Shown here piece by piece: positions 5,896 to 21,414 of a DNA stretch of 62,771 nucleotides. Source of the DNA: Alphaproteobacteria bacterium (lineage in GTDB: Bacteria; Pseudomonadota; Alphaproteobacteria; Micavibrionales; Micavibrionaceae); contig JANQFU010000104.1 in the NCBI GenBank assembly GCA_028277665.1, positions 1 to 62,771 of the forward strand, read 5' to 3'. Within the stretch, counting starts at the first letter, position 1; each line of letters opens with the position of its first letter. The notes beneath the pieces were generated by a model, which had not been told where the DNA came from, ran no database searches, and saw only the letters and a list, made by a program, of their open reading frames with translations. The position numbers and the translations under genes are program-made.

Positions 5896-8529
5896 TCATT
5901 CCGTTTTCAGGAAAATTTCAAGTTCTTTCCGGATTTCTCTGAATTCTGAGAGCATATTCTCAACCAGTATGTTACGGCGCGGCGAATCCTGGTTTGCGAG
6001 ACAGAGGCGCTCCAGCTCTTTGGCCATTTCCGCGAAATTCAGGGCGCCGACATCCCTGGCAATGGAATTTATGGCATGAGCGAAATCCGCTGTGTTTTGA
6101 GTGTCTCCCGTATCATTGGCTTTTTTCATTGGTTCGAGACGGTTCTCGATATCGGTGAGTACGGCCGTTGCAAGTTTTCGGGCATAAGTCTGTTCTTTCC
6201 CTCTCAGGGTTTGCATAATCCGGGCAGATTCATTTGCGCGGGATGTGTCGCCGTCCTGAACGGACGCAGATACGGGAGAGGGGTGATCGGGGGATGTGCT
6301 TGTTGCCGGCAAGGCTTTATCTTTTAGCCATCGTTCCAGTGTAACGGCGAGTTCTTCGATTTTGAGCGGTTTGGAAAGAAAATCGTCCATACCGGCGTCG
6401 AGGCAGGATTGTTTTTGTTCATCCAGCGCATAGGCTGTCAGAGCAATGATGGGGGGGATCGTTTCCTGTTTTTCGGTTTTGCGGGTTTTGATAATTTCCG
6501 TTGCTTCCATTCCACTGACAACCGGCATGCGCAGATCCATGAAAATCAGGTCGTAGGTGTTATCTGCGGCCATTTCGGTTGCCGTTTGCCCGTTTTCCGC
6601 GGTATCGCAGGTGATCCCGAACTGCTCCAGCATGCTGGTAATAATGAAACGGTTGCTTGCAACGTCTTCCGCGAGAAGAATGTGCGCTTTGTATCGCGGA
6701 AAGTCACTTTCGTATTTTCCTGTTCGAAGGGATTTTATTTCGGAGGCCGTTGCTTGCCTTAACGGCAGGGAAAAATAGAACGAGGTTCCTGTGCCGGGGA
6801 TGCTGTTGAAACTGATGTCTCCTTCCATCATTTCCGTCAGGGAACGGCAGATCGAAAGTCCGAGCCCCGTCCCCCCGATTTCCGGATCGGAAAGCGTGTC
6901 GGCCTGGATGAATTTGTCGAAAATAGTCTCCTGTTTTTCGTCCGGAATGCCGCGTCCCGTGTCGGAAACAGTAAAGAGAATTTTTGTGCGCGTGTCAGGG
7001 GACGCCTCAGAGGGGAGGGGGGCGGGATCCTCATTTCTGACGAGGGTGACCCGAAGCTCGACATGCCCTTTTTCCGTGAATTTGATGGCGTTACTGAGAA
7101 GGTTTCCCAGAATTTGCCGGATGCGTCCGCTGTCACCGTAGACATGGTGGGGGATCGCCGCTTCGGTTTCAAGACGCAGATCCAGCTTTTTACTCTGTGC
7201 ATAGTTACGAAACAGGGCGGTTACTTCTTCAAGGAGAGCTGGAAGATTAAAAAGCTGTTCCGATATCCTGAGTTGCCCGGCCTCAATCTTGGCAAGATCA
7301 AGCACGTCGTTAATAATGCCGAGTAAAGCGTCGCCCGAACGGGAGATAAGATTGACATATTCTTCTTGGCGTTTGTTCAGTTTTGTTTTTTTCAAAAGGC
7401 TGGTCGTGCCGATGATTCCATTCATCGGTGTTCGGATTTCATGACTCATATTGGCCAGAAATTCGCTTTTTGCCCGGCTGGCCTGTTCGGCGTCTTTGCG
7501 GGCGATCTGAAGCTCTTCTTCGTTTTGTTTCAAATCGGAGATATCTCTCGCGATTGTTGAGAAATGTGTAACCTCGCCGTCTGCGCCATAGTGAGCCAGG
7601 ACAACCTGGGAAACCGGGATTTCTTCGCTGTGGTCGTTCCTGATAACGGTTTCTCCGATCCATAGACCGTTCCATGTCGCGGCAGGAAGCGCGTCTTCAT
7701 GCACAATTCTAAGGCTGTCTGCCGTTTTTCCCGGCCCTTCTTCCGGGGCTTCCGTTTCTCCGAACAGAAAATCCTGCGCGCTTGGGTTTGTGAAAATCAA
7801 ATTTCCCCTGTGATCCAGGATCGCGACCAGATCCGGCGTCGCTTCCAGAAGTTCAAAAAGACGGTTTCGCTCTGCCTCCGCCTCTTTTAAACGTGTGATG
7901 TCCTCTTGCGTTCCGATATAGGCAATCAGCGCGCCTGAATCGTCAAAAACAGGGGCCATCCTGAGCGTGTTCCAAAATGGCGTACCGTCTTTCCGGTAAT
8001 TCAGGATGTCCAGATGCGCGGATCCTTCAGCTTCGATGGTCTGGCGCAATATTTCTATCGTTCGTGGATCTGTGTCGGCGCCTTGAAGAAAGCGGCAGTT
8101 TTTTCCGAGAACTTCTTCACGGCAGTAGCCGGTCATGGTTTCAAAAGCATGATTGACGTATGCAAGCGGCATATCCGGCAAACGCGCATCTGCAACCGAT
8201 ATGCCGATCGTGCTCGATTCAAGGGCATGAATCAGAAGGTCTTTTTCACGAATGGGCAATGCGATCAGTGCTTCCGTATAAGGCTGATTGATCGGAGACC
8301 GTCTTTCTGTCTCCGTTTTTTTTCTCCCCGAAAAGAGCGCGGTTTTAAAATGCAGCAGCGCCGCGGAGACGAGGATGAGGGCGAGCGCAAACTGCGCGAT
8401 TGGATTCAGAGTCCAGCCGAAAGGAAGCGTAGCTATCAAAACAAGACCTGCGACACCGGGCAGAAGAACGGCCGCCGGTATTTTCGTCTTGTCTTTCTGT
8501 GGCTTTGTTTTTTCAATTTTTGTGATCAA
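5896..8529 (-). CDS. Membrane LOV-PAS hybrid histidine kinase with receiver and Hpt
   Basis: 877 residues. Two hydrophobic segments lie at about 18-36 and 44-62. A LOV-type PAS domain follows at about 95-215: GKNCRFLQG carries the adduct-forming cysteine C145, with flavin-contacting N177, N187 and Q208 at the expected places. A second PAS domain spans about 220-335. HisKA has H363 in MSHEIRTP. HATPase_c has N480, DTGRGIP near 523-529 and GGTGLGLS at 552-559. The receiver has D665 and the C-terminal Hpt-like domain has H818. LOV domains bind FMN and form a cysteinyl adduct in blue light, so a light-controlled phosphorelay is inferred. It is the last gene of the long che/partner-switch block, 48 bp after the phosphatase gene, which makes the REC-SpoIIE protein a natural phosphotransfer partner. 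Confidence 0.93.
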   Translation of the reverse strand: MITKIEKTKPQKDKTKIPAAVLLPGVAGLVLIATLPFGWTLNPIAQFALALILVSAALLHFKTALFSGRKKTETERRSPINQPYTEALIALPIREKDLLIHALESSTIGISVADARLPDMPLAYVNHAFETMTGYCREEVLGKNCRFLQGADTDPRTIEILRQTIEAEGSAHLDILNYRKDGTPFWNTLRMAPVFDDSGALIAYIGTQEDITRLKEAEAERNRLFELLEATPDLVAILDHRGNLIFTNPSAQDFLFGETEAPEEGPGKTADSLRIVHEDALPAATWNGLWIGETVIRNDHSEEIPVSQVVLAHYGADGEVTHFSTIARDISDLKQNEEELQIARKDAEQASRAKSEFLANMSHEIRTPMNGIIGTTSLLKKTKLNKRQEEYVNLISRSGDALLGIINDVLDLAKIEAGQLRISEQLFNLPALLEEVTALFRNYAQSKKLDLRLETEAAIPHHVYGDSGRIRQILGNLLSNAIKFTEKGHVELRVTLVRNEDPAPLPSEASPDTRTKILFTVSDTGRGIPDEKQETIFDKFIQADTLSDPEIGGTGLGLSICRSLTEMMEGDISFNSIPGTGTSFYFSLPLRQATASEIKSLRTGKYESDFPRYKAHILLAEDVASNRFIITSMLEQFGITCDTAENGQTATEMAADNTYDLIFMDLRMPVVSGMEATEIIKTRKTEKQETIPPIIALTAYALDEQKQSCLDAGMDDFLSKPLKIEELAVTLERWLKDKALPATSTSPDHPSPVSASVQDGDTSRANESARIMQTLRGKEQTYARKLATAVLTDIENRLEPMKKANDTGDTQNTADFAHAINSIARDVGALNFAEMAKELERLCLANQDSPRRNILVENMLSEFREIRKELEIFLKTE

Positions 8530-8577
8530 AATTCTATCCTTTTCCGGTTTTTCCTTATGTTGTTTGCTTTATTGGTT

Positions 8578-9813
8578 TCATAGGGGCGGGTTGTAGAGGA
8601 AAGTCGCCAGAGTAATGTCGTCGGCAGCCAGATCGTACCCTTTTTTCAGAAATGTATCCACTATGGCGCTGTTAATGTCTTTCGCCTGGAGCGGGGGACC
8701 GGACTCTGGAATCGTTCCCAGATACTCGCTCATCAGCAGTTCTGCCGGGAGGAAGAACGTTTCATTTTGGTTGTTGTCTATCGGATTCGTTTTTCCGGCA
8801 GGCATGCATTCGATAATACCGTCGGTCATGATGCATATTCCGTCTCCGGAAGAAAGGCATATTTCTCCTTCTGATACTGTAAAATTCTGAGTGCTGATCC
8901 CGATTGGCAGTCCGTTGCACGGGTGTTCTTTAACTTTTTTCTCTCCCGGACGAAAAGACTTGATTGCCGGGAAGCCGGTTGCGGCATATTCTATGCGTCC
9001 CGTCCCGTATTCGAAATGAAAAATGCCGCCGACGCAAAAGTGGATGTCCCCAAAATGCTGGCAAAGACGTATATTCAGGTATTCCAGAAAAGCGGCCATC
9101 TCTATTTTATGGCGGCCTTTTTCCGACAGTCGTGTAAACGCGCTGTTTGCAATCCCTATTATGGCGGCGCTGTTTAAAGAAGCGCGTATGCCATGACCAG
9201 ATATATCCATGACACAAATTATGACGTCGCCGTTCTCAAGCGGCCAGGCTGTCCACATGTCTCCACCGACATGGTAGGCCGGCTGGTATAAAAGGGAAAA
9301 ATCATATCCGGCTTTTCTGAAATTGTCGGTTTGTATTTTTTTGTCAGGCATAATTCTGCGCATGAAATCCTGGGCGGTTCGCATGTCGTGTTCTACTGCC
9401 TGGTCGAGCGTGCGCATCTTCGAGAAAGTTTCCGAGAATTCGAGATAAAATTTGATTCTGTTAATAACTTCCTGTTCGTTAATGGGTTTTTCGAAATAGT
9501 CGTTTGCCCCGAGTTTATAAATTTTTTCGAGATTTTCTTTTCGTTCTCCTGCCGTGATGATAAGAACGGGTGTTTCAAACAAATCCGTTTTTTCCCGTAT
9601 GCGGCGGCAGGCCTCAAACCCGTTGACAACCGGCATGTACAGGTCGAGAAGAATAATGTCCGGGCGGTAGAATTGAGCCATACGTACGCCTTCCAGCCCG
9701 TTTTCGGCGGTCAGGATGTGTCCTATTTTCATTTCGCGCAGCAGGGCTTCCAGTTTGATCCGGTGGTAATTTGTGTCTTCTATGATCAGGATGCTTTTCT
9801 GGTTACTGTTCAT
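8578..9813 (-). CDS. Response regulator with PP2C-type SpoIIE phosphatase output (RsbU-like)
   Basis: 411 residues. An N-terminal receiver (about 5-125) has the acidic pair E12-D13 and phospho-acceptor D57 in LLDLYMP. A coiled linker (about 125-165) leads to a SpoIIE/PP2C phosphatase domain with the metal-binding blocks VGGDMWTAW, VMDISGHGIRASL, MTDGIIE and a final DDITLATF. Such proteins dephosphorylate a phosphoserine on a STAS antagonist when their receiver is phosphorylated. The STAS and ATPase genes lie just upstream in the same transcript. Its start overlaps the end of the ATPase gene by about 11 bp, indicating translational coupling. The downstream LOV hybrid kinase ends in an Hpt domain that could phosphorylate D57 (inference). 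Confidence 0.93.
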   Translation of the reverse strand: MNSNQKSILIIEDTNYHRIKLEALLREMKIGHILTAENGLEGVRMAQFYRPDIILLDLYMPVVNGFEACRRIREKTDLFETPVLIITAGERKENLEKIYKLGANDYFEKPINEQEVINRIKFYLEFSETFSKMRTLDQAVEHDMRTAQDFMRRIMPDKKIQTDNFRKAGYDFSLLYQPAYHVGGDMWTAWPLENGDVIICVMDISGHGIRASLNSAAIIGIANSAFTRLSEKGRHKIEMAAFLEYLNIRLCQHFGDIHFCVGGIFHFEYGTGRIEYAATGFPAIKSFRPGEKKVKEHPCNGLPIGISTQNFTVSEGEICLSSGDGICIMTDGIIECMPAGKTNPIDNNQNETFFLPAELLMSEYLGTIPESGPPLQAKDINSAIVDTFLKKGYDLAADDITLATFLYNPPL

Positions 9814-11764
9814 CGATACATAACCTTTCCGGTCTCCTGTCTTCAGCAGAGACCCCTTTCAGACCGTCCTTAAGGATTTCTATGGCAATAAAGGGGCGTC
9901 CGAATTTTTGCGCCAGCGTTTTTATGCTGAATGGGGCGGGGCAGGGAATTTTTCTGATGTCCAGATCCGTGTCGGGCGTAATGAGATACGTTCCTTTCCG
10001 CGAGATCGACTGACAAAACGGGGTTCCGTTTGTATAGTATGCGCGATCGACCGGGTCGAGGCGGATTTCTCTTTCATCAGGGAAATAGCTGACCAGCATG
10101 ATAAGAAAACGGTCCAGTGTACGCATACATAAACGATCTTCTCCGAGCGTACACGTACAGAAATGGCATTCTTTGAAAGTTGTGTCCGGGGAAATAAGAG
10201 ACGCGACGGCGCGTCCGAGGATATCATTGACAATAGGGGTGCCGATTTCATGATCTTCGAAAAAATCGCTCATCTGTGCCTTGGTTTTCGAAAACAGAAG
10301 AGCAGGCGTAAAGCCGGTTTTGTTGATCGCAATGGCGGCAAGCTTAAGGGATTTGCCGTCTGGAAACGGGATCGTCTGGAAGTACCAGCCGGAGCCCTCA
10401 TTCCTGTGTTGTGTTGAGGGAGATGTCGGTCTTATTTCCTGTGTTTGTGTGCCAAAGCTGTGTATGACGGCAAATGTCTGCCCGCCTTTTCCTGTAATGT
10501 GAATGCTGTGCTGTTTCTCAACTTCCTCAAGGATGTGAATGGTTTTTCCGAATTCCTCCTGATAATTTTTATAGCTCGTATCCAGTTTCTTACGGGCGTG
10601 CCGCATATCTATCTGGACACCGAGCCGGGCGGACAGTTCGTAAAGCGTGAAAGACAAGGGCAGAACTTCGTTTACGTTCCTGAAAAAATCGGTGTGACTC
10701 CCGGGCGCAGAAGGGGGCGGCGTTTGATAGAGGATTGAAAATTCCTTTTTGTCGTGATGTTGACGTAAAGACCTCAATTGGCCGGAAATTTTGTCATACG
10801 GAACGTCTGCAAGGATAATCATGGCGGAGCTGTGTTCGGTAATGTCTTCAATAAACTCTATTCGGGGCAGAACATGCCTCGCGCGTGTATATCCAAGTGC
10901 GTTGAGCTTGTTGCGCATTTCTTCAAACAAGGCCGGCGCCTCTGTCATGACAGCGATGATATCTGTCGAAAATCCGTCTTTTGCGTCTTCCGGAAGAACA
11001 ATTTTACCGTGTTTTTCGGACATCGATACCGTTATTCGCCCGGAAAAAGGGCAGCATTCTATTTTGTCCGCAATATGAAGAATGTAGTCGAATCCCTTTG
11101 TAAAAATTTTGTCTTTGTATTTGTGTATGAAATCTTCGAAGCGGACGCCGGGCCCCTCATCTTCAATGCAGATCCGAAGATGGGGCGGCGCGAGCGTGAG
11201 CGTAAGAGAAAGGGGCAGCCCTCCCAATTCCGGTTCTTTGAGGCAAGAGGAGATTTTCTGGCAGGCATCCAGAAAATCGGCGTGCTCTTTGTCGAGAGGA
11301 AAATCGGTTTTCAGGTTTCCATGCAATATTGCGTTCATGAGGAGTTCATGCGCGACAATCCCGAAATTTTGAGTGAACGTTTCTGAAAACCGGAAATGCT
11401 TTTCCAGCATGTTTTGAAAAGGTCTGATCCAGTCTTCTTCATAGGCCCGTTTCGTTGACAGGAGGATTTTTATATATTTTTCAAGCTCAAGGCTGTTCGC
11501 AGGGAGGCGGTCTGCAAGGCGCCGGGGCCAGTCTGAAATTCCCATATCAACATATAGCGACGCGATGGAATCGATGCCGGCGCTAAGAAAACTCTCCGGA
11601 TTTTCGTCGGTATTCTCGTCGAAAAGAATAATTTTGAGGGAATTTTTAATGTCCTTCAAAGAATTCAAAGACGTTATGCCTTCCTGATCCGGCGTTATGC
11701 CGGCATTTGAAAGCGCCGTTCTGATGTGTTCCGGGTTATGGTGCTCCGGAATAAAAAAATGCAT
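9803..11764 (-). CDS. RsbW-like ATPase fused to a large uncharacterised C-terminal region
   Basis: 653 residues from the ATG at 11764. A longer reading would overlap the STAS gene, and this start lies 7 bp after the STAS stop. Residues about 120-245 form a GHKL/RsbW-type ATPase: an N box near 138-150 (AHELLMNAILHGN) and a G1 box EDEGPG at 201-206. The usual G2 glycine-rich lid is degenerate (TKGFDYILHIADKI). Residues about 265-385 look like an alternating beta/alpha receiver-like fold without a clear phosphorylation site. The far C-terminal region is unrecognised and contains the cluster C533-x2-C536-x-C538-x7-C546. In partner switching such a protein binds and phosphorylates a STAS protein. 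Here it probably pairs with the STAS gene upstream and the RsbU-like phosphatase downstream. Its output partner is unknown. Confidence 0.8.
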   Translation of the reverse strand: MHFFIPEHHNPEHIRTALSNAGITPDQEGITSLNSLKDIKNSLKIILFDENTDENPESFLSAGIDSIASLYVDMGISDWPRRLADRLPANSLELEKYIKILLSTKRAYEEDWIRPFQNMLEKHFRFSETFTQNFGIVAHELLMNAILHGNLKTDFPLDKEHADFLDACQKISSCLKEPELGGLPLSLTLTLAPPHLRICIEDEGPGVRFEDFIHKYKDKIFTKGFDYILHIADKIECCPFSGRITVSMSEKHGKIVLPEDAKDGFSTDIIAVMTEAPALFEEMRNKLNALGYTRARHVLPRIEFIEDITEHSSAMIILADVPYDKISGQLRSLRQHHDKKEFSILYQTPPPSAPGSHTDFFRNVNEVLPLSFTLYELSARLGVQIDMRHARKKLDTSYKNYQEEFGKTIHILEEVEKQHSIHITGKGGQTFAVIHSFGTQTQEIRPTSPSTQHRNEGSGWYFQTIPFPDGKSLKLAAIAINKTGFTPALLFSKTKAQMSDFFEDHEIGTPIVNDILGRAVASLISPDTTFKECHFCTCTLGEDRLCMRTLDRFLIMLVSYFPDEREIRLDPVDRAYYTNGTPFCQSISRKGTYLITPDTDLDIRKIPCPAPFSIKTLAQKFGRPFIAIEILKDGLKGVSAEDRRPERLCIDEQ

Positions 11765-11771
11765 GTGATTT

Positions 11772-12086
11772 CTAGCTTTTCGTTTGAGTGACCTGGAGTT
11801 GTTTATCAATACTGGTGATCTCAAAAACGCGCCGGACTTGCCCTTGAGGGTTTTTCAGGTGGAGGTGTCCTCCCATTTTTGTGATAATTTTGTGCGCAAG
11901 GAAGAGCATGCCGATTCCGGCGCTATCGATTGCTTCGAGTGCGGATAAGTCAAAGGTGATAGTTTTTTTTGTATTTTGAAAATTGTTGATCAGGGCGTTA
12001 AATTCTGTGTGGTCCTGAAAATTCAGCTTCCCTTCAAGGTGGACTATGATGTCATTTTCTCCGTATATTTCCTGTCTGGTGTTCAT
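11772..12086 (-). CDS. STAS-domain anti-sigma-factor antagonist-like protein (RsbV-like)
   Basis: 104 residues from the ATG at 12086, preceded by AGAGAAG. Upstream in-frame codons would run into the soluble MCP-like gene. It is a single STAS domain, with the conserved phosphorylation loop at residues 53-59 (IDSAGIG) and S55 as the likely phosphoserine. In the RsbV family, phosphorylation by an RsbW-type kinase and dephosphorylation by an RsbU-type phosphatase control partner binding. Both partners are encoded immediately downstream. The target of the switch here could be a sigma factor elsewhere or a component of the adjoining chemotaxis machinery, and neither is shown by sequence. Confidence 0.88.
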   Translation of the reverse strand: MNTRQEIYGENDIIVHLEGKLNFQDHTEFNALINNFQNTKKTITFDLSALEAIDSAGIGMLFLAHKIITKMGGHLHLKNPQGQVRRVFEITSIDKQLQVTQTKS

Positions 12087-12123
12087 GTTTTCGCTTCTCT
12101 CTTGTTCGTTTTTATTAATCAGA

Positions 12124-13254
12124 TCAAAAAAGCTCAATATCGTCTTCATCCTCAGCATGATTTGCGCTGTCCCCAACCGCATTCTCATCGGTTGTTCCGG
12201 TTGAAGGGGGAGAGGGCGTTTCGCCCGTCTCCTCAAGAAAATCTTCTTTCAGGCGGGACAATGAGAATCTCTTCAGCAAATCGTCGATCATTTCCTGTGG
12301 CAGTTCGTGGGGGAGGTCGCTCAGATCCGCATGCCGCCGGGAGTTTTCCGTCAGTTTCTCAACTTTGTCCTGAATGCCTTCCGATGCGGCGTTCAGGTGC
12401 TGCATGCGTTGCTTTGCGTAATCCTGAAACTGCATGGCCATGATCAAACGTGAGACGATATTCGAGATATCCGCCGCGCTGCTGACTGTGTTTTCGAGAA
12501 CTTTCTTGTGCTGGGCGGATTGTTCGATCAGGGCGGAAAGCGTTTTGTTGACATGATCTTTCATTTCAATCTGTTTGGTCATGTCGCGGGAGGCAATGTC
12601 TTCAAGCATGATGAAGCTCTCATCAAGGTTGCCGGAAAGTCCCGTAATAAGGGCGTTCATCTTTTCTGCCAGATCCCTTGTATCCTGTGATAAATCGCGG
12701 ACCTCTTTTGCGACGACTCCGAAGGACTTTCCTGTGTCGCCTCCGGCGCGCTCGGCTTCGATCAGAGCGTTGATTGAAAGATATTTCGTGTCTTTTGTGA
12801 TTTTAAAAATATCTTCAAGGGCTGCGTTGACTTCTTTTGAGTCTGCAACGGCTTTTTGCATGACATAGACCATATTCATGGCCTGTTTTGAGATTTCGAG
12901 GACGTCGTTGATCATAAAGGAAATCAGGTCGTCCAGAGATTTAACGACGTCGCTGAGCGGTAGAGCCTGTCCGTCCAGGACAATGTTCGTTGATGTCTCG
13001 ACAATATTTGTGACGGTCCGAGATTGGTCATGCGCCTTCTCGGAAATGGCGCGAAAATTTTCGACAAGAGCTTCTGCCTGTTCCTCTATATATCTGGACA
13101 GAGAGTCCACCTCTGAACGAGAGCGCTCGGAAGCCCAGCTGATCAGGAGACCGAGTTCCACCCATCTGTGGACCAGTTCCTCTCTGCTGTGCCCGTCCGG
13201 AACGGTATAATCCTCCGGAACGGTGAGCTCCTCCGTGTCTTCAGAGTTCGTCAT
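12124..13254 (-). CDS. Soluble MCP-like signalling protein
   Basis: 376 residues with no membrane segment. A long helical region contains an MCP signalling hairpin tip near 155-200 (SINALIEAERAGGDTGKSF, then GVVAKEVRDLSQDT), which is the CheA/CheW contact site in receptors. Further on there is an AMQFQDYAKQRM block of a kind also seen in other cytosolic MCP-like proteins. The tail is acidic and ends DDIELF, closely like the end of the CheD encoded nearby (GDVELF). The gene overlaps the end of cheB by 14 bp. It may be a cytosolic receptor, or an adaptor or phosphatase-like partner of CheY. No canonical CheZ, CheC or CheX is seen in the block, so a role in signal termination is conceivable but unproven. 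Confidence 0.82.
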   Translation of the reverse strand: MTNSEDTEELTVPEDYTVPDGHSREELVHRWVELGLLISWASERSRSEVDSLSRYIEEQAEALVENFRAISEKAHDQSRTVTNIVETSTNIVLDGQALPLSDVVKSLDDLISFMINDVLEISKQAMNMVYVMQKAVADSKEVNAALEDIFKITKDTKYLSINALIEAERAGGDTGKSFGVVAKEVRDLSQDTRDLAEKMNALITGLSGNLDESFIMLEDIASRDMTKQIEMKDHVNKTLSALIEQSAQHKKVLENTVSSAADISNIVSRLIMAMQFQDYAKQRMQHLNAASEGIQDKVEKLTENSRRHADLSDLPHELPQEMIDDLLKRFSLSRLKEDFLEETGETPSPPSTGTTDENAVGDSANHAEDEDDIELF

Positions 13255-14311
13255 TAATCGTCTCCAGAATTTTATTCAAAGACAGGGATTTTTGAATCGC
13301 GCCGGCTTCCGCCGCGGCTTTCGGCATGCCGTAGACCAGACAGCTTGCCTCCGACTCTCCGAGCGTGACGGCGCCCGTGTTCATGAGTTTGAGCAGCCCC
13401 TTCGCGCCGTCGTTCCCCATGCCCGAAATGATGATCCCCACGCTTTTTCGTCCGACGGTCTCGGCCATCGAGTCGAACAGATATTCCGCCGAGGCGATAA
13501 AACCGCCAAGGGGAGGGGCCTTCAGAAAGGCGGCTTTAAGAACGGCGCCTTCTTGCCGGACCTGGAGATGATGCTCGTTGTCCGCGAAATAGATCGTATT
13601 GGCCTGAAGGATCTCGTTATGGGCGGCGGTTTTAACCTTGATATGCGGCGGGGCGATCGTGGCGATCCGCTCGACAAGGTTCGGGATGTAGTGCCGGTTG
13701 ATGTGCTGAACGATCATGGTTGGCGGGATATTGCATTTTAATCCTCCGGCCAGATAGCGCAGACGTTCGACGCCGCCGGTCGAGGACGCGATTCCGATCA
13801 GCCGGCGTTTGACGCTGCGCCGGGTTCCCGGTGTGGCCTGGGTTTTGGGTGTGGAGGCGACGTGCCCCTGGATGTTCTTCGAGCCGGCCACGGCGCGAAG
13901 ACGCGGAACCAGTTCGTTATTGATCAGGTTTGTAAAGGCGTCCCCGTCAACATTTCCGTTATGGGTCAGAGGTTTGGCGATGGCGTCCGCGGCTCCGATC
14001 TCCAGAGCCTCGATTGTGACGGCGGCGTTTTTTTGTGTGAGAGAGGAGAGCATGATCACCGGCATAGGGCGCAGGCGCATGATTTTGTCGAGGAAGTCGA
14101 TCCCGTTCATGTGCGGCATTTCAACGTCGAGCGTGATGACGTCCGGGTTTGTCGCCTTGATCATTTCCCTGGCCTCGAAAGGGTCTTCCGCTTCGCCGCA
14201 GATTTCAAATCCGGCACGCATCAGCGTGTCCTTCAGGACGGCCCGGATAAAACTGCTGTCGTCGACGATTCCGACCCGGATCTTGCTATTGCTTTTGCTA
14301 AAAGAGTTCAA
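13241..14311 (-). CDS. cheB: Chemotaxis response regulator protein-glutamate methylesterase CheB
   Basis: 356 residues. An N-terminal receiver has D17-D18 and phospho-acceptor D62 in LDVEMPHMNG. A linker leads to the methylesterase domain with nucleophile S177 in the SSTGG block, H203 in VQHINRHY and D301 in SGMGNDGAKG. It removes methyl groups from (and deamidates) receptor glutamates and is activated by CheA phosphorylation. The start overlaps cheD by 14 bp and the end overlaps the soluble MCP-like gene by 14 bp, so the three are probably co-translated. Confidence 0.97.
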   Translation of the reverse strand: MNSFSKSNSKIRVGIVDDSSFIRAVLKDTLMRAGFEICGEAEDPFEAREMIKATNPDVITLDVEMPHMNGIDFLDKIMRLRPMPVIMLSSLTQKNAAVTIEALEIGAADAIAKPLTHNGNVDGDAFTNLINNELVPRLRAVAGSKNIQGHVASTPKTQATPGTRRSVKRRLIGIASSTGGVERLRYLAGGLKCNIPPTMIVQHINRHYIPNLVERIATIAPPHIKVKTAAHNEILQANTIYFADNEHHLQVRQEGAVLKAAFLKAPPLGGFIASAEYLFDSMAETVGRKSVGIIISGMGNDGAKGLLKLMNTGAVTLGESEASCLVYGMPKAAAEAGAIQKSLSLNKILETINDEL

Positions 14312-14909
14312 CGTCTCCCTCCAGTTTCTGATGGCGCAGGTCTTCGTATGTTTTCCGCTCGTTTTCCGCGAGTGAGGTAAGATCTGTGGATGTGATGACC
14401 GGGCGGACGAGGGCGCGCCCGGTCGCGGGATAAAAAATAACTTTCCGGCCGGTCGTGCCGCCGCTGTCTTCGCTCGTGATCCGGATTCTTTCCGTGCGGA
14501 AGAACTGGCGTGCGAATTCTACGTTCCGCTTTCCGACATCGTTTGAGACGCCCGAAATGACTTTGCCGCCGCCGAAAATTTTGACGGTCAGATCGTTTTT
14601 GCAAGCGCCGTGGCTGTAGAGTGCGTTCAACAGAATTTCTATTGCGGCTTCTCCGTAGCGTTCCGAGCGGTCGAGCGGATTTTTGCTTTGCGTTTTCGGA
14701 ATGTCGGGCAGAAGGAAATGATTCATGCCGCCGACGCCGATATGCGTGTCACAGACGCAAACGGAGACGCAGGAGCCAAGTGTCGTTGACAGGGCAAGAT
14801 GACGGTCTTTCGACCATGCATAATATCCGGCCGCGATGGGAACCATATGCACGTCGAAATTTTTGTCGAAATACCCGTCGTTTTTTTTGCTTTCTTTTAC
14901 GAGCGTCAT
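14298..14909 (-). CDS. cheD: Chemoreceptor glutamine deamidase CheD
   Basis: 203 residues. The catalytic cysteine is in TLGSCVSVCVCD and the catalytic histidine in GMNHFLLP. KIFGGG and VGKRNVEFARQF are further family signatures. CheD deamidates receptor glutamines and in many bacteria partners with CheC or CheY. The C-terminus is an extension ending GDVELF, similar to the tail of the soluble MCP-like protein two genes on. The start overlaps the cheR stop as ATGA and the end overlaps cheB, giving tight translational coupling. Confidence 0.96.
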   Translation of the reverse strand: MTLVKESKKNDGYFDKNFDVHMVPIAAGYYAWSKDRHLALSTTLGSCVSVCVCDTHIGVGGMNHFLLPDIPKTQSKNPLDRSERYGEAAIEILLNALYSHGACKNDLTVKIFGGGKVISGVSNDVGKRNVEFARQFFRTERIRITSEDSGGTTGRKVIFYPATGRALVRPVITSTDLTSLAENERKTYEDLRHQKLEGDVELF

Positions 14910-15763
14910 GCGATTCTTTCGTATGTTGTATGGCCTTTTGAGACGAACATGGGATGCGCTCCGGCATAATGTTCGGAATGTCCGAGATAGAGCAGGGCGC
15001 CCGGTTCCATCAACTGGGCCATTTTATTAACGTATGTGCGTTGTTTGTCCCGGTCGAAATAGATCAGGACGTTGCGGCAGAAAACAGCCTGAAAGGGACC
15101 TTTCATCGGCCAAAGGGGCATGTTCAGGTTCAGGTGATTAAAGGATACCAGATCCCGCACGTCTTCATTGACGCGGTATTTTGCGCCGCCGCTTCCGGGC
15201 TCGATCGTCAGATATTTCTGGCGGTATTCCGGCGAAACGCCTTTTAATGAGTCCTCGCCGTAAATCCCCTGACGGGCGCGGGCCAGAATGGTCGTGTCGA
15301 TGTCTGTCGCCAAAATCCGTATATTGCCGCGCATGCCCGTTTCCTTGCGGACGTCCAGAACGGTCATGGCCATGGAATAGGGCTCCTGTCCGCTGGAGCA
15401 TCCCGCCGACCAGATCCGGATTTTTTTGTTGGGATTCTGTTGAAGGAGCGTTTTGAGTTGTTCTTTCAGAACCTCGAAATGATGATTTTCCCGAAAAAAA
15501 TGAGTGACATTTGTCGTGCAGACATTCACCAGATCCGGGATTTCCGTGTCCCGGTGCTTTTTGTCCATAAGATATTCAACATAGGCATCGTATCCCGGCA
15601 ACCCCAGAATTTTGATCCGTTTGGCGATCCGGTTCGAAACCATCTGGGCCTTGTGGTCCGCAAGGGTAATGCCGCAGACATTGTAGATAACGTCCTTGAT
15701 CGTCAGGAAATGTTCCTGGGTAAAAGTCTGATTGTCGGGGCTGGAGTGTTTTTCTGAGGTCAT
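14906..15763 (-). CDS. cheR: Chemotaxis protein methyltransferase CheR
   Basis: 285 residues. An N-terminal helical domain is followed by an S-adenosylmethionine-binding domain with IRIWSAGCSSGQEPYSMAM (motif I), the conserved ATDID block and FCRNVLIYFD. It methylates receptor glutamates. The transmembrane receptor encoded just upstream ends in DWKEF, which resembles the NWETF-type C-terminal pentapeptide that docks CheR and CheB. It overlaps cheD by 4 bp (ATGA). Confidence 0.97.
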   Translation of the reverse strand: MTSEKHSSPDNQTFTQEHFLTIKDVIYNVCGITLADHKAQMVSNRIAKRIKILGLPGYDAYVEYLMDKKHRDTEIPDLVNVCTTNVTHFFRENHHFEVLKEQLKTLLQQNPNKKIRIWSAGCSSGQEPYSMAMTVLDVRKETGMRGNIRILATDIDTTILARARQGIYGEDSLKGVSPEYRQKYLTIEPGSGGAKYRVNEDVRDLVSFNHLNLNMPLWPMKGPFQAVFCRNVLIYFDRDKQRTYVNKMAQLMEPGALLYLGHSEHYAGAHPMFVSKGHTTYERIA

Positions 15764-15855
15764 ATGCGGGGAGCCTGTTTTCGCTTTTTATTTCAAGTCG
15801 AACCTGAGCCGCAAGGCGGCTCAGGCTTGTCTGCGTTTTCCTCTGGCGCCGCGTT

Positions 15856-17892
15856 CTAGAATTCTTTCCAGTCCGCGTCGTTATTCGGATCCGGGGCGAA
15901 TTCGCCGCTGCCTGCCGGTGCGGCTTTCGATTTGGGTGCGGTCGTCGGCGCGCTGCGGACGGGCGCGGCGGCTTCTGCCACACGGGTTGACATCCGCCGC
16001 GCGCTGCGGCGCCCGGCTTCGTCGAGCTTGAAGAATTCGACGGCTTCGAAGAGCTGGGCGGCCTTGTCCTGCATGTCGGCCGCAAGCCCCCGGCTTTGCT
16101 GGGCCATGGCGGCGTTTTGCTGGGTTGTGCTGTCCATCTCCACGACGGCCTGCGAGACTTCGTCAAGCGAGGTCGATTGTTCTTCGCTCGCCCGGGCGAT
16201 TTCGCTGACCTTGTCGGTCACGCTGTCGATGGATTTGTAGATTTCCTGCAGCGATTCGACCGCATCCTTGACGAGATCGACCCCGCCGCGGACCTGTTTG
16301 GAGCTGTCGTCGATCAGGCCTTTGATGTCTTTGGAGGACTGGGCCGAGCGTTGTGCCAGCGTCCGGACTTCCTGCGCGACGACGGCAAAGCCGCGTCCCG
16401 CGTCTCCCGCCCGGGCGGCCTCAACGGCGGCGTTCAGGGCGAGGAGGTTGGTCTGGAACGCGATTTCGTCGATCACCGTGATGATGTCTGTAATTTTCTC
16501 GGACGATTCGTTGATCTTTTCCATCGCTTCTCCGGCTTCTCCGGCGACGCGGCTTCCTTTTTCGGCGACGGTCCGGGCGCGCCCGGCTTCGTCGCTGGCC
16601 TCTTTCGCACTGTCGGCGTTCGTGCGGACCGTTGTGGTCAGCTCTTCCATCGAGGCCGACGTTTCTTCCAGTGTGGAGGCCATTTGCTCGGTCCGGTCGG
16701 AGAGTCCTTGCGAGTCTCTGGCCATTTCATCGGCTTTGCCTTTGACGTCTTCCGATGTGCCCTTGATGTCTCCGATCACGTCGCGCAGGCGGCCGATGAA
16801 GGTGTCCATCTGGCGGCACATTTCGGAGATTTCGTCTCTGCCGTTCGTGAACGGCATTTCGTTCGTGAGATCTCCTCCGGCCAGAATTTTAACCGCATCC
16901 TGCATGCCGCGGACGGGCCGCAGGATCGCGCCGGTCAGGAAGAAGGAAATGGTAACGCCGATGGCGAACCCTGCAGCCGAGAGAGCGAGCGCGGTTTGAA
17001 TCGTTCTTTCAATCAGGGTGTTCATGGCTTCGCCGATTTCATCTTCGCTCTCGGCCATGCTTGACTGAACAAAAGCCGCGTTTTCGCGCATGTGCTCGCC
17101 GGGTTTCAGGATTTTGGAATTCACAATTTCATTTCGGGCAAAAATGGCTTCCGCGATTTCCTCGACATGTCTTTTGTACTCCGCCGTCATCTGGATTGCT
17201 TCATTGAGCCAGACCAGACGCTGCGGATTCTCAACGCCGTTTTTCAGGTCTTCAAGCGCGTGGTGCGCGTTTTCATACAGCCTCAGGATTTCTTTGTAAT
17301 CGGCTTGCGTGTTATCTCTTTGGAAGCGCAGCATGATCAGGCGCATGACATAAATGATGCCATTCGCTTCCCGGGCATCGCTTGCGGTTACGAAATCGCC
17401 GTCCTTGTACGCCGTACTGGCGATTTCGTCGATTTTCCGGTTTATCTGCGGCCCCAATATGTCGGTTCCTTCGAGGACAAGCTTGTTTCTCCTGTCCATG
17501 AGAACCAGGTTTTCTTTTATCCCTCCAAAATAAATCTTTTTGTTTTCGTCTATTTCATCGATTTTTGCCGCACGTGTCGGATCACCGATCGAGGCTTGAG
17601 CCTCACTGATCATTTCATCCATGTGTTTTTCACTGATTTCGAACCCTTCGCGCAGGTCTTTGTTGCCTGTTCGCAGCCAGTCAAGAAAATCCTTCTGGCT
17701 TTTGGCGACATAACCGCTCAAGTTGCCCACAAGTTTGGATTCGTCGACCAGCTCGTTATATTCGTCGAATGATGTGTTCACCTTGCTGAGCTGCATATAA
17801 GAGATCCCCGCGATTATCGCGAGAATGAGCAGAACCGTTCCAAAGCCGGTGTAGATTTTCTGCCCGATTTTCATGTTGTTTAAGAGATTCAT
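15856..17892 (-). CDS. Transmembrane methyl-accepting chemotaxis protein
   Basis: 678 residues. TM1 lies at about 14-33, a long helical periplasmic region of about 265 residues follows, and TM2 is at 301-322. The length and all-helical look of the sensor suggest a helical bimodular (HBM)-type ligand domain, though this is not certain. A HAMP domain (about 323-375) precedes the cytoplasmic signalling helices, whose hairpin tip carries [20 protein letters not shown] and the following [10 protein letters not shown]. The C-terminus ends DADWKEF, matching the xWxxF receptor tether for CheR/CheB. Encoded between cheW and cheR, it is likely the dedicated receptor of this cluster. The ligand is unknown. 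Confidence 0.95.
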
Positions 17893-17931
17893 TGTATGCC
17901 TCCTGTCAGATTTCAGATTTTGTGTGCGGGG

Positions 17932-18528
17932 TTATGCGGGGGATTGCTGAAGCTCGTCGATCATCTTCATGTCGAAAAGCTTGGCGATATTGACGATGGC
18001 GACCATCCGTTTTCCGGCGGTGACCAGACCGTCGAGATACTGGGTTTCAACGGTCATGCTGGCGTCCGGCGGCGGCTGGATCCGGTCGCTCTCGATGGTC
18101 AGAATGTCCGAGATCGCGTCGACGAGCAGGCCGATCGTCCGCCCGCGAATGTCGGCCATGATCACGACATGGCGGTCCGTGACTTCCGTCAGGACGTTCT
18201 GGAACCGGGCCTGAAGATCGAAAACGGGGACGATGTTGCCGCGCAGGTTCGTGACGCCGCGGACATAGACCGGCGTGTTCGGAAGCGGGGTCGTTTTCAT
18301 CCAGCCGCGGATTTCCTGAACGGTCAGGATCGGCGTGGCGTATTCCTCATCGTTGATCGTGAAGGTGATGTACTGGTTCTCCGCGTCCACGGACTGGCTC
18401 AGGCCCATATCGTCCATGGCCGTGGCGCCTTCGATGTCCTGTTTTTGCGCACTGTTTTCTTCCGCGTCGGGAAGCGCGGCGGCTGTTTTTGCCTTTGCCT
18501 CTTGTTCCAATGTTTCGCTTTCTGTCAT
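17932..18528 (-). CDS. cheW: Chemotaxis coupling protein CheW
   Basis: 198 residues. A low-complexity acidic/alanine-rich N-terminal extension of about 50 residues precedes a standard CheW domain: QYITFTINDEEYATPI, VQEIRGWMKTTPLPNTP, VRGVTNLRGNIVPVFDL and a DAISDIL-containing end. CheW links receptors to CheA. The extension is longer than in typical CheW proteins and has no recognised role. It is 37 bp downstream of cheA and 39 bp upstream of the receptor gene. Confidence 0.95.
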   Translation of the reverse strand: MTESETLEQEAKAKTAAALPDAEENSAQKQDIEGATAMDDMGLSQSVDAENQYITFTINDEEYATPILTVQEIRGWMKTTPLPNTPVYVRGVTNLRGNIVPVFDLQARFQNVLTEVTDRHVVIMADIRGRTIGLLVDAISDILTIESDRIQPPPDASMTVETQYLDGLVTAGKRMVAIVNIAKLFDMKMIDELQQSPA

Positions 18529-18565
18529 GTCTGGCCTCTTTTTTGCTGGTTGATCCGGAATGTGT

Positions 18566-20644
18566 TCAGGTTGTTGTCTGTACGTAATCGTAATTCCCGC
18601 TTTGCTTTTGCAGGGCTTTCAGGTCGATGCTTGCTTCCATATTGACCATTCCCGGGACGTCAATGATCAGGGCGACATCCCCGTTGCCCAGAATGGTGGC
18701 GGCCGAGGCGCCGGGGACATTGGCGTAATTCGTCTCCAGACTTTTGATGACGACTTGCTGCTGGCCCAGAACCTCGTCCACCATGATGGCCAGCCGGTCG
18801 CCTTCGTCGCTTTCGACGAGGACAACGAGGCCGTCTTCCGGGTTTTTGATCGCGTCATCGACGCCGAAGATGTCGAATAGCGGCATGATCCGGACATATT
18901 CGCCGCGCGCCTTGATGACGTTGCAGTTCCTTGAGATCGTGCTGATATCTTCTTTGCGCGGCTGCACGCTTTCGATGATATTGATCGTGGGCAGGACGAA
19001 TCGCTGTGAGCCGACGGAGACGACCATCCCGTCCATAACAGCGAGCGTCAGGGGCAGGGAGAGCGAGAAACGGCTGCCTTTGCCGGGGGTGGAGGTGACG
19101 GAAATCCGCCCGCCCATGGCTGTGACGTTCCGGCGGACGACGTCCATGCCAACCCCGCGACCGGAAACCTCCGAGACTTCTTCCGCTGTCGAGAAGCCGG
19201 GCCGGAAAATGAGGTTGTTCAACTCGTGTTCGGAGAGATTGGCATCCGGTTTTTCAAGCCCCTGTTCGACGGCTTTTTTGAAGACGGCGTCCTTGTTGAT
19301 CCCTTTCCCGTCGTCCTGAACCTCGATAACGATCCGGCCGGATTTGTGTTTGGCCGAGAGCTGGAGCGTGCCGTAGCGGGTTTTTCCGGCGTCTTCCCTT
19401 TCGGCCGGCATTTCGATCCCGTGATCAACGGCGTTACGGACCATGTGGGTCAGCGGATCGACGAGGTTTTCGAGGACCGTTTTATCGACTTCCGTATCTT
19501 CCCCAAAGGTCGTCAGGCGGACGTCCTTGCCGAGCATGTCCGAGATTTCCCGGATGATCCGCGGCATGCGCGTGAACACGGATTTAATCTGCTGGGCCCG
19601 GACGGCCATCACGCTTTCCTGCAGGTCCAGCATGTGGCGGGAGAGTTGATCGACGCTTTTCTGAACCTCGGTGCCGGTCTCGCTGGTCAGCCAGCGGGCT
19701 TTTTCCTGCAGCATGGATTGGGCGATCACCATTTCGCCGACAAGGTTCACCATCAGATCGATTCGTTTGAGATCGACCCGGATAGAACTGGTTCCGCTTG
19801 TCGCGGCGCTTTCCTGAGTGTCGCGGTCTTCCCGGCGGCGGCCGAGGCGCTGCGCTTTTTCCGGATCCTCGGTTTTCCGGCGCTCGGGCATGTCGCCGGG
19901 CGGCGTGTCCTGAAGAGCAATGCTCAGGTCGCACAAATCCTCGACGAATTCGAAGATTTCCCGAATTTCCTCTTCCGGGGCGAGTGTTTTCAGAATGAGG
20001 CGCCAGCCGGTATAACAGGAATCCGGCAACATCTCGTCAAAAGGCGGCAGGTCGTCGAGATCCACTGTGATTTCCAGTTTGCCGAGATCTTTTAAGGCCT
20101 GAAACAGATAGAGCGGCTCGTTGCCCGTTTTCAGCATGTCCGGGCGCGGACGGAACTGGATGGCCCAGGTTTTTTCGGCGTGTTCGCAGGCGGGGCCGTT
20201 TTCCGGTGTGCTGTCTTTCGATGCAGGGCCGGCCGGAGCGGCAGAGTCGTCTCCGCCCGCACCGCCGACGGCGGCCAGAGCGGCCATGGCTTCGACAATG
20301 TTCGCGCCGAGATCCGGGTCGCTGTCCATGCCGGCCCGGGCGTCGGCGATCAGTGTGTCCAGTATGTCTTTTGCACGCAGGAACAGGTCGATCCGCTCGC
20401 GCGTGACGTCCAGTGCGCCTTCCCGCATGAGGTCCAGAGCGGTCTCGAAGTGATGCGTGAAATGAACGATATGATCGAAGGCGAAGGCGCCGGCCCCGCC
20501 CTTGATTGAGTGAATATCCCGAAAGACCCGGTCGATCAGATCCGGGTCGGTTCCGCCGGATTGCAGAACGTTCAGGGCGTCTTCCGCGTCCAGGAGCCGG
20601 TCTTCACATTCCTCAAAATATGTCTGTTTGAAGCTGTCATCCAT
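18566..20644 (-). CDS. cheA: Chemotaxis histidine kinase CheA
   Basis: 692 residues. The P1 Hpt domain has H45 in DIHSIKGGAGAF. An alanine/proline-rich linker is followed by a P2-like alpha/beta region (about 165-255) and a charged linker. The P3 dimerisation helices begin near SSIRVDLKRIDLMVNLVGEM. The P4 ATPase has HMVRNAVDHGIE, a VQDDGKGI G1 box and GRGVGMDVV. The C-terminal P5 CheW-like domain ends the protein. CheA autophosphorylates in response to receptors and passes phosphate to CheY and CheB, both encoded here. No frameshift or missing key residue is seen. Confidence 0.97.
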   Translation of the reverse strand: MDDSFKQTYFEECEDRLLDAEDALNVLQSGGTDPDLIDRVFRDIHSIKGGAGAFAFDHIVHFTHHFETALDLMREGALDVTRERIDLFLRAKDILDTLIADARAGMDSDPDLGANIVEAMAALAAVGGAGGDDSAAPAGPASKDSTPENGPACEHAEKTWAIQFRPRPDMLKTGNEPLYLFQALKDLGKLEITVDLDDLPPFDEMLPDSCYTGWRLILKTLAPEEEIREIFEFVEDLCDLSIALQDTPPGDMPERRKTEDPEKAQRLGRRREDRDTQESAATSGTSSIRVDLKRIDLMVNLVGEMVIAQSMLQEKARWLTSETGTEVQKSVDQLSRHMLDLQESVMAVRAQQIKSVFTRMPRIIREISDMLGKDVRLTTFGEDTEVDKTVLENLVDPLTHMVRNAVDHGIEMPAEREDAGKTRYGTLQLSAKHKSGRIVIEVQDDGKGINKDAVFKKAVEQGLEKPDANLSEHELNNLIFRPGFSTAEEVSEVSGRGVGMDVVRRNVTAMGGRISVTSTPGKGSRFSLSLPLTLAVMDGMVVSVGSQRFVLPTINIIESVQPRKEDISTISRNCNVIKARGEYVRIMPLFDIFGVDDAIKNPEDGLVVLVESDEGDRLAIMVDEVLGQQQVVIKSLETNYANVPGASAATILGNGDVALIIDVPGMVNMEASIDLKALQKQSGNYDYVQTTT

Positions 20645-20691
20645 TTTTAGTCTCTTTTCAGTATTTTATAAATCGTTATTCATCTCTTTTC

Positions 20692-21060
20692 TTAACCACC
20701 GGCGACGCGCTTGACGACCGAGATCAGCTTTTCCGGGTTGAAGGGTTTGACAATCCAGCCGGTGGCTCCGGCTTCGCGCCCGGCGTTCTTTTTCGTTTCA
20801 TCGGCTTCCGTCGTCAGCATCAGGATCGGTGTGGTTTTGTAGGCCGGGAGCAGACGTAGGGCTTTGATCAGTTCGAGGCCGTTCATGTTCGGCATATTCA
20901 GGTCCGTAATGACCACGTCCGCGGCCTGCCCGTTGAGGACGTCGAGCGCTTTTTTGCCGTCTTCGGCTTCGAGGACGTCGTATCCTGCCGTCTTTAGCGT
21001 GTGGGACACCATGTCCCGCATGGTCTTCGAATCGTCTACGGTGATGACACGCAATGCCAT
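20692..21060 (-). CDS. cheY: Chemotaxis response regulator CheY
   Basis: 122 residues, a stand-alone receiver: acidic pair D9-D10, phospho-acceptor D53 in VVITDLNMPNMNG, the conserved T in MLTTEAD and K in WIVKPFNPEKL. It is of the CheY type that normally acts on a flagellar or pilus motor. It is encoded 18 bp after the STAS gene and 47 bp before cheA. Confidence 0.96.
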   Translation of the reverse strand: MALRVITVDDSKTMRDMVSHTLKTAGYDVLEAEDGKKALDVLNGQAADVVITDLNMPNMNGLELIKALRLLPAYKTTPILMLTTEADETKKNAGREAGATGWIVKPFNPEKLISVVKRVAGG

Positions 21061-21078
21061 GTTCTTGCCTCTTGCCTT

Positions 21079-21414
21079 CTATGGGTTGTTCACTGTGAGC
21101 GGGAGAGAATCCTCCAGCCCGAGTTCTTGAAGAACGGTTTCGATCGCGGGCGATGCCGAGAACACAAAGCCCCGCCCTCCGGGCGCTGTTTTTTTTCGGG
21201 CGGCGATCAGAACCTGGATGCAGGCCAGGGATATCCTTTCCGTTTCGGACATATCGATTTCGATGCTGCCTTTTGCGTTATTTACAAGCAGAGTCTCAAT
21301 GTCTTTTTTCAGTTCGCTGGCGTATGCCAGATCGGCGTGGAGCGGAATTTCTATTTTTTGGGCCGCGTCCTTGCTCTTCTTTTTTTTGGTCGTGTTTTGT
21401 TTCTCTCCGGCCAT
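21079..21414 (-). CDS. STAS-domain protein at the head of the che operon
   Basis: 111 residues. A lysine-rich N-terminus (about 20 residues) precedes a compact STAS domain. The usual phosphorylation-loop region reads ERISLACIQVLIAARK, where many chemotaxis-linked STAS proteins carry a small or serine residue at the position before ACIQ; here it is leucine after S58, so phosphorylation is uncertain. Small STAS proteins at this position are known in other alphaproteobacterial che operons. As the first gene of the minus-strand block it probably lies closest to the promoter, in the divergent gap with the IalB-like gene. Confidence 0.87.
   Translation of the reverse strand: MAGEKQNTTKKKKSKDAAQKIEIPLHADLAYASELKKDIETLLVNNAKGSIEIDMSETERISLACIQVLIAARKKTAPGGRGFVFSASPAIETVLQELGLEDSLPLTVNNP

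Follow-up and report, generated by a model that had tools for sequence, protein, structure and literature searches.

An F7-class chemosensory cluster with a likely partner-switch output and a LOV hybrid kinase at its end

The locus described here raises the question of which signals enter, and what output leaves, a chemosensory gene cluster that runs on into genes for a partner switch and a blue-light kinase. The window (the whole stretch of DNA analysed, 62,771 nucleotides) was originally predicted to hold thirteen minus-strand genes with short gaps or overlaps. The ORF list and Pfam domains confirmed this: 13 collinear ORFs, all on the minus strand, occupy positions 5896-21414, and neighbouring genes overlap slightly or are separated by gaps of at most 92 bp, the widest (15764-15855) lying between the MCP gene and cheR. 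STAS1 (21414) is first in transcription order and the LOV kinase (5896) last. The chemotaxis, STAS, ATPase, REC-SpoIIE and LOV-kinase domains claimed for these genes were all found, including those of the nine genes called chemotaxis-type, of which the ninth (13254-12124) more precisely encodes an McpA-like, soluble homologue of chemoreceptors that combines an MCP tip with a CheZ-like motif. The listed ORF start of STAS2 (12236) and the called start of the 653-residue ATPase protein are probably too far upstream, 12086 and 11764, respectively, being the likelier starts. Promoter-like sites across 5600-21700 numbered 13, compared with 9.2 +/- 2.9 in shuffled sequences, which neither supports nor refutes co-transcription.

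Table 1 Features of the chemosensory and partner-switch cluster (positions are those of the window).
Feature	Position	Strand	Evidence
STAS1, first gene, leucine at phosphoacceptor place	21079..21414	-	PF13466 1.4e-8; STAS alignment
CheY	20692..21060	-	PF00072 8.6e-30
CheA (Hpt, dimerisation, HATPase, CheW-like)	18566..20644	-	Pfam; CheA tree
CheW	17932..18528	-	PF01584 8.5e-34
Chemoreceptor, 4HB-HAMP-MCP signal, C-terminal DWKEF	15856..17892	-	Pfam; sequence
CheR	14906..15763	-	PF01739 1.4e-59
CheD	14298..14909	-	PF03975 9.8e-29
CheB	13241..14311	-	PF01339 7.8e-41
McpA-like protein (MCP hairpin, CheZ-like motif, IELF tail)	12124..13254	-	PF00015 5.5e-17; model pLDDT 69.6
CheZ-like motif D278xxxQ282 in McpA-like protein	12409..12423	-	D and Q in 34/34 sequences
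IELF, C-terminal end of McpA-like protein	12127..12138	-	[IV][ED][LMF]F ends 33/34 sequences
STAS2, likely phosphorylatable	11772..12086	-	PF01740 3.5e-16; D-S in 24/24 STAS2
653-residue protein: ATPase, degenerate receiver, C-terminal domain without profile match	9803..11764	-	profiles 2.4e-20 (ATPase), 2.1e-7 (receiver)
REC-SpoIIE, all four PP2C motifs retained	8578..9813	-	PF00072 3.3e-25, PF07228 8.3e-22
Hybrid kinase LOV-PAS-HisKA-HATPase-REC-Hpt	5896..8529	-	Pfam; H box and Hpt by sequence
LOV domain with GKNCRFLQ in hybrid kinase	7885..8244	-	1.6e-34 to solved LOV domain, cysteine aligned

The F7 "stage 1" order given in the excerpted text of PMC7184735 is antagonist, cheY, cheA, cheW, receptor, cheR, cheD, cheB, McpA-like, antagonist, serine phosphatase. 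The order found here, STAS-cheY-cheA-cheW-MCP-cheR-cheD-cheB-McpA-like-STAS-(ATPase)-REC/SpoIIE, is close to it and includes the two antagonists, the serine phosphatase and the McpA-like receptor with the conserved C-terminus expected of F7. In a tree of 37 rows with few outgroups, two long branches and a midpoint root, CheA falls in a 30-row clade (support 99/99) with the CheA of E. coli and Vibrio, and the other CheA of the same genomes fall outside. Judged from CheA placement, gene content and gene order, the cluster is an F7-class chemosensory system. Stage 1, as set out in the same excerpt, has two cheW-like genes against one here, and for its receptor an Aer2-like 36H type is described, whereas the receptor here has a 4HB-HAMP domain make-up. 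The ATPase here is moreover a protein of its own that carries a degenerate REC half, the gene row closes with a LOV hybrid kinase, and the host class, Alphaproteobacteria, is probably a further difference.

The joint arrangement had been thought unusual, and a survey of gene order around relatives had been set beforehand as the test of this. The claim did not hold: relatives keep the order, and most of it has been published. Matches to the McpA-like protein were obtained in 69 other genomes; 26 loci in 24 genomes were examined, of the 27 with matches of about 1e-19 or better (the G113:C18 locus was left out), and weaker matches, in 45 genomes, were treated as ordinary MCPs and stand outside the counts. 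REC-SpoIIE lies inside the cluster at 16 of the 26 loci examined in the class, and its absence says little where the 20 kb limit or, as in L117 and L119, a contig end truncates the locus. Two Vibrio contigs, L130 and a second, contig-split cluster of the same genome share the layout. The cluster of the nearest relative, G050, contains neither the ATPase nor the kinase, so the switch in G050 must work otherwise or not at all. A scripted scan of at least 80 named loci found CheA with SpoIIE at 3 and yielded McpA-like sequences from 6; tblastn on plasmids was unproductive. The core layout is thus already described, and the less ordinary features are the LOV end, the 653-residue fusion and the CheZ-like McpA receptor.

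The role of McpA-like receptors and of their conserved C-terminus in F7 systems is a published question (PMC7184735). The 34 McpA-like sequences compared all retain the D and the Q of FQDxxxQ, a CheZ-like motif, and 33 of them end in an IELF-type tail, which is also found in the Vibrio homologues. In CheZ, the D and Q of DxxxQ are the catalytic residues, with D143 and Q147 as the E. coli counterparts. Profile comparison of the McpA-like proteins with a CheZ set that was itself picked by its motif gave a 92.9% match, which fell to 3.7% when the motif was cut out, as expected if the motif were the shared part. The match stands for the alpha and gamma sets taken separately. The proteins thus resemble CheZ in the FQDxxxQ motif and an acidic-hydrophobic C-terminal tail, and differ from it in being longer, in having an MCP tip and in giving no Pfam CheZ match. 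These sequence features suggest that the McpA-like protein is a CheY-P phosphatase in receptor form. We regard as evenly poised the wider proposal that, in both Alpha- and Gammaproteobacteria, the McpA-like receptors of F7 clusters dephosphorylate CheY-P, using a chemoreceptor scaffold in which helix 2 of the MCP hairpin bears a CheZ active site and the tail docks CheY in the manner of CheZ.

A plausible alternative, given somewhat less weight, is that FQDxxxQ serves structure or docking in a genuine chemoreceptor and is not a phosphatase site. The MCP tip speaks for it, as do the best sequence and fold matches, which are mostly MCPs or other coiled coils with no CheZ among the best 50 fold matches listed, the lack of a match to Pfam CheZ, the choice of the CheZ set by its motif, and the reported association of P. 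aeruginosa McpA with the F6 array (PMC7184735). Set against this reading are the placing of Q275, D278 and Q282 among just 15 invariant columns in the 34 sequences, together with the loss of the CheZ match on motif removal and its presence in each set apart. What weighs against the phosphatase reading is that the genome encodes a true CheZ elsewhere; one is also present in 22 of the 26 searched genomes that carry McpA. According to the excerpt of PMC7184735, F6 clusters are the only ones to include cheZ at stages 1 and 2. If the phosphatase reading is true, F7 clusters without cheZ have an off-switch of their own. The motif makes the question of McpA-like function directly and cheaply testable.

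In an alignment of 15 STAS1 and 24 STAS2 sequences, the phosphoacceptor place of the window's STAS2 reads D-S-A-G, the D-S being kept in all 24 STAS2, and that of its STAS1 reads S-L-A-C. Across the STAS1 proteins this place is occupied by T (9), L (3), S (2) or A (1), leucine being the residue in G050 and in both clusters of the window's genome. STAS1 is therefore an unlikely second substrate, and its candidacy as an equal one was rejected. REC-SpoIIE keeps the four SpoIIE/PP2C motifs and an intact receiver motif. The protein predicted to be an RsbW-like ATPase does match the ATPase profile (2.4e-20; 99.3% profile match to the ATPases of relatives), although it scores below the Pfam cut-off for HATPase_c_2 (14.8 vs 27.4 bits) and is a 653-residue fusion whose receiver has lost the receiver motifs. 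Profile comparison of its C-terminal domain did not confirm a SpoIIE fold (0.2% alone, 3.1% with the G050 copy; model pLDDT <50). Foldseek top matches of the domain model were to P. aeruginosa RssB, these being partly circular because REC-SpoIIE rows stood in the model's alignment. A protein search returned the 653-residue protein alone among approximately 8000 candidates scored, and a search with its wider family returned it with unrelated receiver proteins.

One supported CheA clade has five members, each with a tandem pair of REC-SpoIIE copies, and the 653-residue protein fits an ATPase fused with the first of two such copies. The clade would then display steps in phosphatase decay, with fusion to the ATPase in the window's genome. 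REC, phosphatase and ATPase sit in two genes here and in one protein, the CrsR type, in Vibrio L135 and L137; L101, considered as a further single ATPase-REC-SpoIIE protein, was rejected as its ATPase lies in a different frame.

LOV histidine kinases and YtvA (LOV-STAS) are cases of a blue-light domain wired to a stress-type switch. The known ones act via PhyR-NepR or the stressosome, and none is known to act via the phosphatase of a chemosensory cluster; NepR had no match in this genome, which has four sigma-70 region-2 matches. The LOV domain at the end of the cluster is intact, its adduct cysteine aligns with that of a solved LOV domain, and it is joined to a histidine kinase in one protein that also keeps the H box, the receiver and the Hpt histidine. 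Of the 16 survey clusters that include REC-SpoIIE, four have a hybrid kinase or an Hpt-bearing sensor immediately downstream, and one has a LOV protein there. This suggests that cluster and kinase are loosely linked and that the receiver of the phosphatase is in most cases phosphorylated by some other protein, for which CheA is a plausible candidate; the LOV kinase is an add-on to the cluster.

It could be argued further that the LOV kinase only adjoins the cluster and has a response regulator of its own elsewhere, with CheA alone driving the partner switch, a reading that would suit the 12 of 16 clusters without such a sensor directly downstream and the kinase-free cluster of G050. We consider it unlikely in view of the position of the kinase, which is separated from REC-SpoIIE by 48 bases, with both genes on one strand. 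Moreover, the second cluster of the genome has a paralogous kinase in the same place (43% over 703 residues), kinases come after the switch in L110, L111, L115 and L130, and an intact LOV also ends one distant cluster (G113), as a separate small protein 6 bases past the switch.

We lean towards an F7 cluster with a likely partner-switch output, in which the LOV kinase would give the phosphatase of the switch a second input, blue light. The receptor array would set CheA activity, and phosphate from CheA would go to CheY, to CheB and probably to the receiver domain of REC-SpoIIE; under illumination, the LOV kinase would use its own REC and Hpt to pass phosphate to that same receiver. Activated REC-SpoIIE would dephosphorylate STAS2, and free STAS2 would bind the ATPase and release its target, a sigma factor or another partner; otherwise the ATPase would phosphorylate STAS2. 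The degenerate half of the 653-residue protein is likely non-catalytic and may hold STAS2 or the active phosphatase close to the kinase, and the McpA-like protein would likely end the CheY branch as a CheY-P phosphatase via D278 and Q282, its tail docking CheY. By its motifs (LOV cysteine, H box, receivers, Hpt histidine, STAS2 serine and four SpoIIE motifs) the predicted partner-switch relay is intact. The relay of the original prediction, from LOV through Hpt, REC phosphatase and STAS to the ATPase, survives in this respect and needs amending for a kinase that is an add-on (4/16) and for STAS1 as an improbable substrate. Flagellar chemotaxis through CheY beside a vestigial or unrelated partner switch is very doubtful: FliG is present in the genome and the E. 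coli flagellar CheA lies in the same clade, but the CheA of a different cluster (C34, L009) sits in the tree with the second copies from four other genomes, REC-SpoIIE and STAS2 retain their motifs, and REC-SpoIIE recurs at 16 of 26 loci.

Related wiring has been described. The Shewanella oneidensis che1 locus, in the excerpt of PMC9855816, unites che genes with crsR and crsA, and likewise places an antagonist and a regulator with an anti-sigma domain, acting in sigma-factor control, beside che genes; here ATPase and phosphatase are split between two proteins, a light input is predicted and no RpoS was identified. The HptB-HsbR-HsbA pathway of Pseudomonas aeruginosa (PMC5085249) resembles the proposed relay: hybrid sensors signal via Hpt to a SpoIIE-type switch, at its receiver, and from there to a STAS protein. 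Its Hpt stands alone and its sensors are encoded elsewhere, unlike here, where the Hpt is within the kinase and a chemosensory cluster is joined. The paralogous kinase of the second cluster, which lies on the two contigs C34 and C30, is of the dCache/PAS type, and the two clusters, one ending in a LOV kinase and the other in a dCache/PAS kinase, constitute a natural sensor swap.

The 13 collinear minus-strand genes of the original prediction are confirmed as real by the ORF calls, and Pfam supports the predicted domain role of each except the 653-residue ATPase protein, which scored under its cut-off. The LOV domain of the kinase matched a solved LOV domain (1.6e-34) with the cysteine aligned, and REC-SpoIIE retains GGD, DISGHG, TDG and DDIT. 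In the STAS protein alignment D-S is found at the phosphoacceptor motif, the serine of which would be the phosphorylated residue, in all 24 STAS2 sequences and in one of 15 STAS1 sequences; the STAS1 serine is replaced by leucine in the window, in a second cluster of the same genome and in the nearest relative (G050).

A profile made from both McpA-like proteins of the window's genome (cut-off 1e-10) had matches in 70 genomes out of the 385 of the class, and from these 26 loci in 24 other genomes were examined. The joint arrangement had been predicted to be unusual; the chemosensory core, however, recurs at 23 of the 26 loci, with REC-SpoIIE inside the cluster at 16. The ATPase is on the same strand in 13 of these 16 (that of L063 recognised solely by the N-box when aligned), a candidate is on the opposite strand in two (L103 and L114), and none was found nearby in L104. 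A hybrid kinase or Hpt-bearing sensor lies directly downstream in four: Hpt is above the cut-off in L110 and L115 and just under it in L111, while the L113 sensor has GAF, PAS and an Hpt just under the cut-off, with no kinase domain found. Locus L130 (NZ_JACABA010000001.1, labelled a Rhodopseudomonas MAG) keeps the order from STAS1 to REC-SpoIIE, followed after one small ORF by a dCache-PAS hybrid kinase that gave no Hpt match at 0.01. Two Vibrio loci (L135 and L137) run from cheY to STAS2 and then encode a single REC-SpoIIE-ATPase protein. In the available text of PMC9855816, crsR and crsA lie within Shewanella che1 and are linked to RpoS. Only the window's genome and G050 gave an McpA-like match at 1e-30 (2 of 142 genomes of the order) or a match to the 653-residue protein (2 of 104 of the family). 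The cluster thus combines a known core with a novel variation at its end. Two features inside it are testable: the McpA-like protein with its resemblance to CheZ, and the fusion of the ATPase with a degenerate REC half.

In the CheA tree (37 rows with few outgroups, two rows on very long branches, root for drawing only) the window's CheA is placed, together with those of E. coli and the two Vibrio clusters, in a clade of 30 rows (99/99). Vibrio's other CheA lies outside it, as do five second CheA that form a clade of their own (from the window's genome, G050, G448, G144 and the L130 genome). The CheA of L009 falls among the second CheA proteins of relatives. L009 is a third CheA cluster of the window's genome, with a CheA of 1014 residues, CheB- and CheR-like neighbours and an ORF which we take to be ChpT-like.

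An MCP tip is present in the McpA-like protein, whose long second helix (modelled at 174-308) contains the motif FQDYAKQ. The corresponding motif of E. coli CheZ is FQDLTGQ, with D143 and Q147, presumably the catalytic residues. All 34 McpA-like sequences keep the D and Q, among them two from Vibrio and two from other gammaproteobacteria in which E or A stands for the Q before D; the tail [IV][ED][LMF]F terminates 33 of the 34. Of 19 ordinary MCPs encoded at these loci none has the motif, and 15 end in W-x-[ED]-F. Profile comparison with CheZ (26 rows, being E. coli and 25 frames picked by motif, one protein twice) gave 92.9% (3.8e-7 as a single comparison), with D on D and Q on Q; the five gamma-type sequences alone gave 84.1% and the rest alone 85.7%. 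Controls gave at most 1.0% (30 column shuffles), 1.3% (reversed), 8.2% (ordinary MCPs), 1.1% (N-terminal part) and 3.7% (motif cut out), and the shared part is therefore the motif region and not the whole protein. Counting against a CheZ-like reading, Pfam CheZ did not match the McpA-like protein, CheZ was absent among the 50 fold matches listed for its model, and a true CheZ is encoded elsewhere in the window's genome and in 22 of 26 McpA-bearing genomes. In the part of PMC7184735 available, the conservation of McpA-like C-termini is described as striking, their role and the receptor function for the F7 class are called unclear, and only F6 clusters include cheZ in stages 1-2. No proposal of CheZ-like activity for McpA-like receptors was seen among the matches listed (titles and abstract starts). 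The McpA-like protein of genome G113 was matched twice by that of the window (36-273 and 390-605), as a tandem double hairpin.

Residues 1-265 of the ATPase protein match the ATPases of relatives (99.3%, 2.4e-20) and its middle matches receivers (93.6%, 2.1e-7) in profile comparisons; the last 244 residues alone gave no profile match, and AlphaFold gave receiver pLDDT blocks of 63-90 with no confident fold beyond. Pooling the three degenerate copies (window, contig C30 and G050) gave a match to active REC-SpoIIE (97.8%, 1.3e-12) spanning the receiver and the beginning of SpoIIE, an alignment in which the receiver acidic pair is lost in all three copies and the lysine in two. In G050 a 402-residue version without the ATPase, matching about residues 288-497 of the ATPase protein (BLASTP, 9e-12), precedes REC-SpoIIE. 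Loci L101 and L102 have the order STAS2, ATPase, REC-SpoIIE, REC-SpoIIE, where the TDG aspartate is no longer present in the first REC-SpoIIE (YNNA, YSVA) and GGD is retained. These two, the window, the second cluster (contigs C34 and C30 counted as one) and G050 form one CheA clade (99/96); only one REC-SpoIIE was found in L130 and in each of the remaining survey clusters (14). A single tandem duplication, followed by decay of the first copy and by its fusion to the ATPase in the window's lineage, is the simplest reading. At L051-L056, L058-L061 and L065, away from chemosensory genes, regions of ATPase, receiver and SpoIIE type are joined in single proteins of ~630-690 residues, although some of these regions score below threshold. 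The loci belong to several genomes of Alphaproteobacteria, many of them small.

The predicted light relay is complete by motif: light would act on the LOV kinase and, through Hpt, REC-SpoIIE and STAS2, on the ATPase. HptB-HsbR-HsbA is a described parallel to this kinase-to-switch relay (PMC5085249, in the part available). As REC-SpoIIE usually has no kinase beside it, it is likelier that CheA was the ancestral donor and that the LOV kinase came in as an additional input. A LOV protein is present in one of the 16 REC-SpoIIE clusters, L069, also the only hit of a six-frame LOV cysteine motif scan of L001-L129; no real motif was seen among the 80 named loci listed. In the CheA tree L069 is placed next to L123 and at a distance from the window, and LOV was therefore probably recruited twice. 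Among the matches listed, no paper combined LOV with chemosensory, partner-switch and SpoIIE proteins. The C-terminal tail of the L069 LOV protein is rich in helix and includes a histidine (HLRDS); it may be what is left of a histidine-kinase dimerisation domain, or a variant of one, with no ATPase domain attached. As regards possible targets of the switch, the window's genome encodes FliG and has four sigma-70 region-2 matches (frames of 664, 301, 228 and 206 residues); NepR had no match there, and the Caulobacter control was detected.

Coordinates of individual features
Feature	Contig or locus	Position	Strand	Length
LOV protein of G113	L069	11449-12081	+	211 residues
McpA-like protein of G113	L069	7098-9185	+	696 residues
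Third CheA cluster (L009)	C34	1500-21000		
28-base repeat	C30	28439-28466		
28-base repeat	C34	76221-76248		
Two long ORFs, overlapping antisense	window	22688-26092	+ and -	1127 aa (+), 1123 aa (-)

The second cluster is divided between two contig ends, C34 carrying STAS1-cheY-cheA-cheW-MCP-cheR-cheD-cheB-McpA-like and C30 carrying STAS2, the ATPase protein, REC-SpoIIE and a hybrid kinase. Identity to the window proteins ranges from 77% (CheY) down to 29% (ATPase protein); the kinase has dCache_3 and PAS domains, and no LOV cysteine motif was found in it by the scan. We infer that the two ends are neighbours. Both carry the same 28-base repeat, of which seven copies were found when up to two mismatches were allowed. 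An insertion element may separate McpA-like from STAS2 in this cluster. The repeats would face each other if the contigs adjoin, and a copy on contig C74 adjoins a transposase-like ORF, presumably of the IS630 type. In the window, the longer of the two antisense ORFs carries an autotransporter beta-domain.
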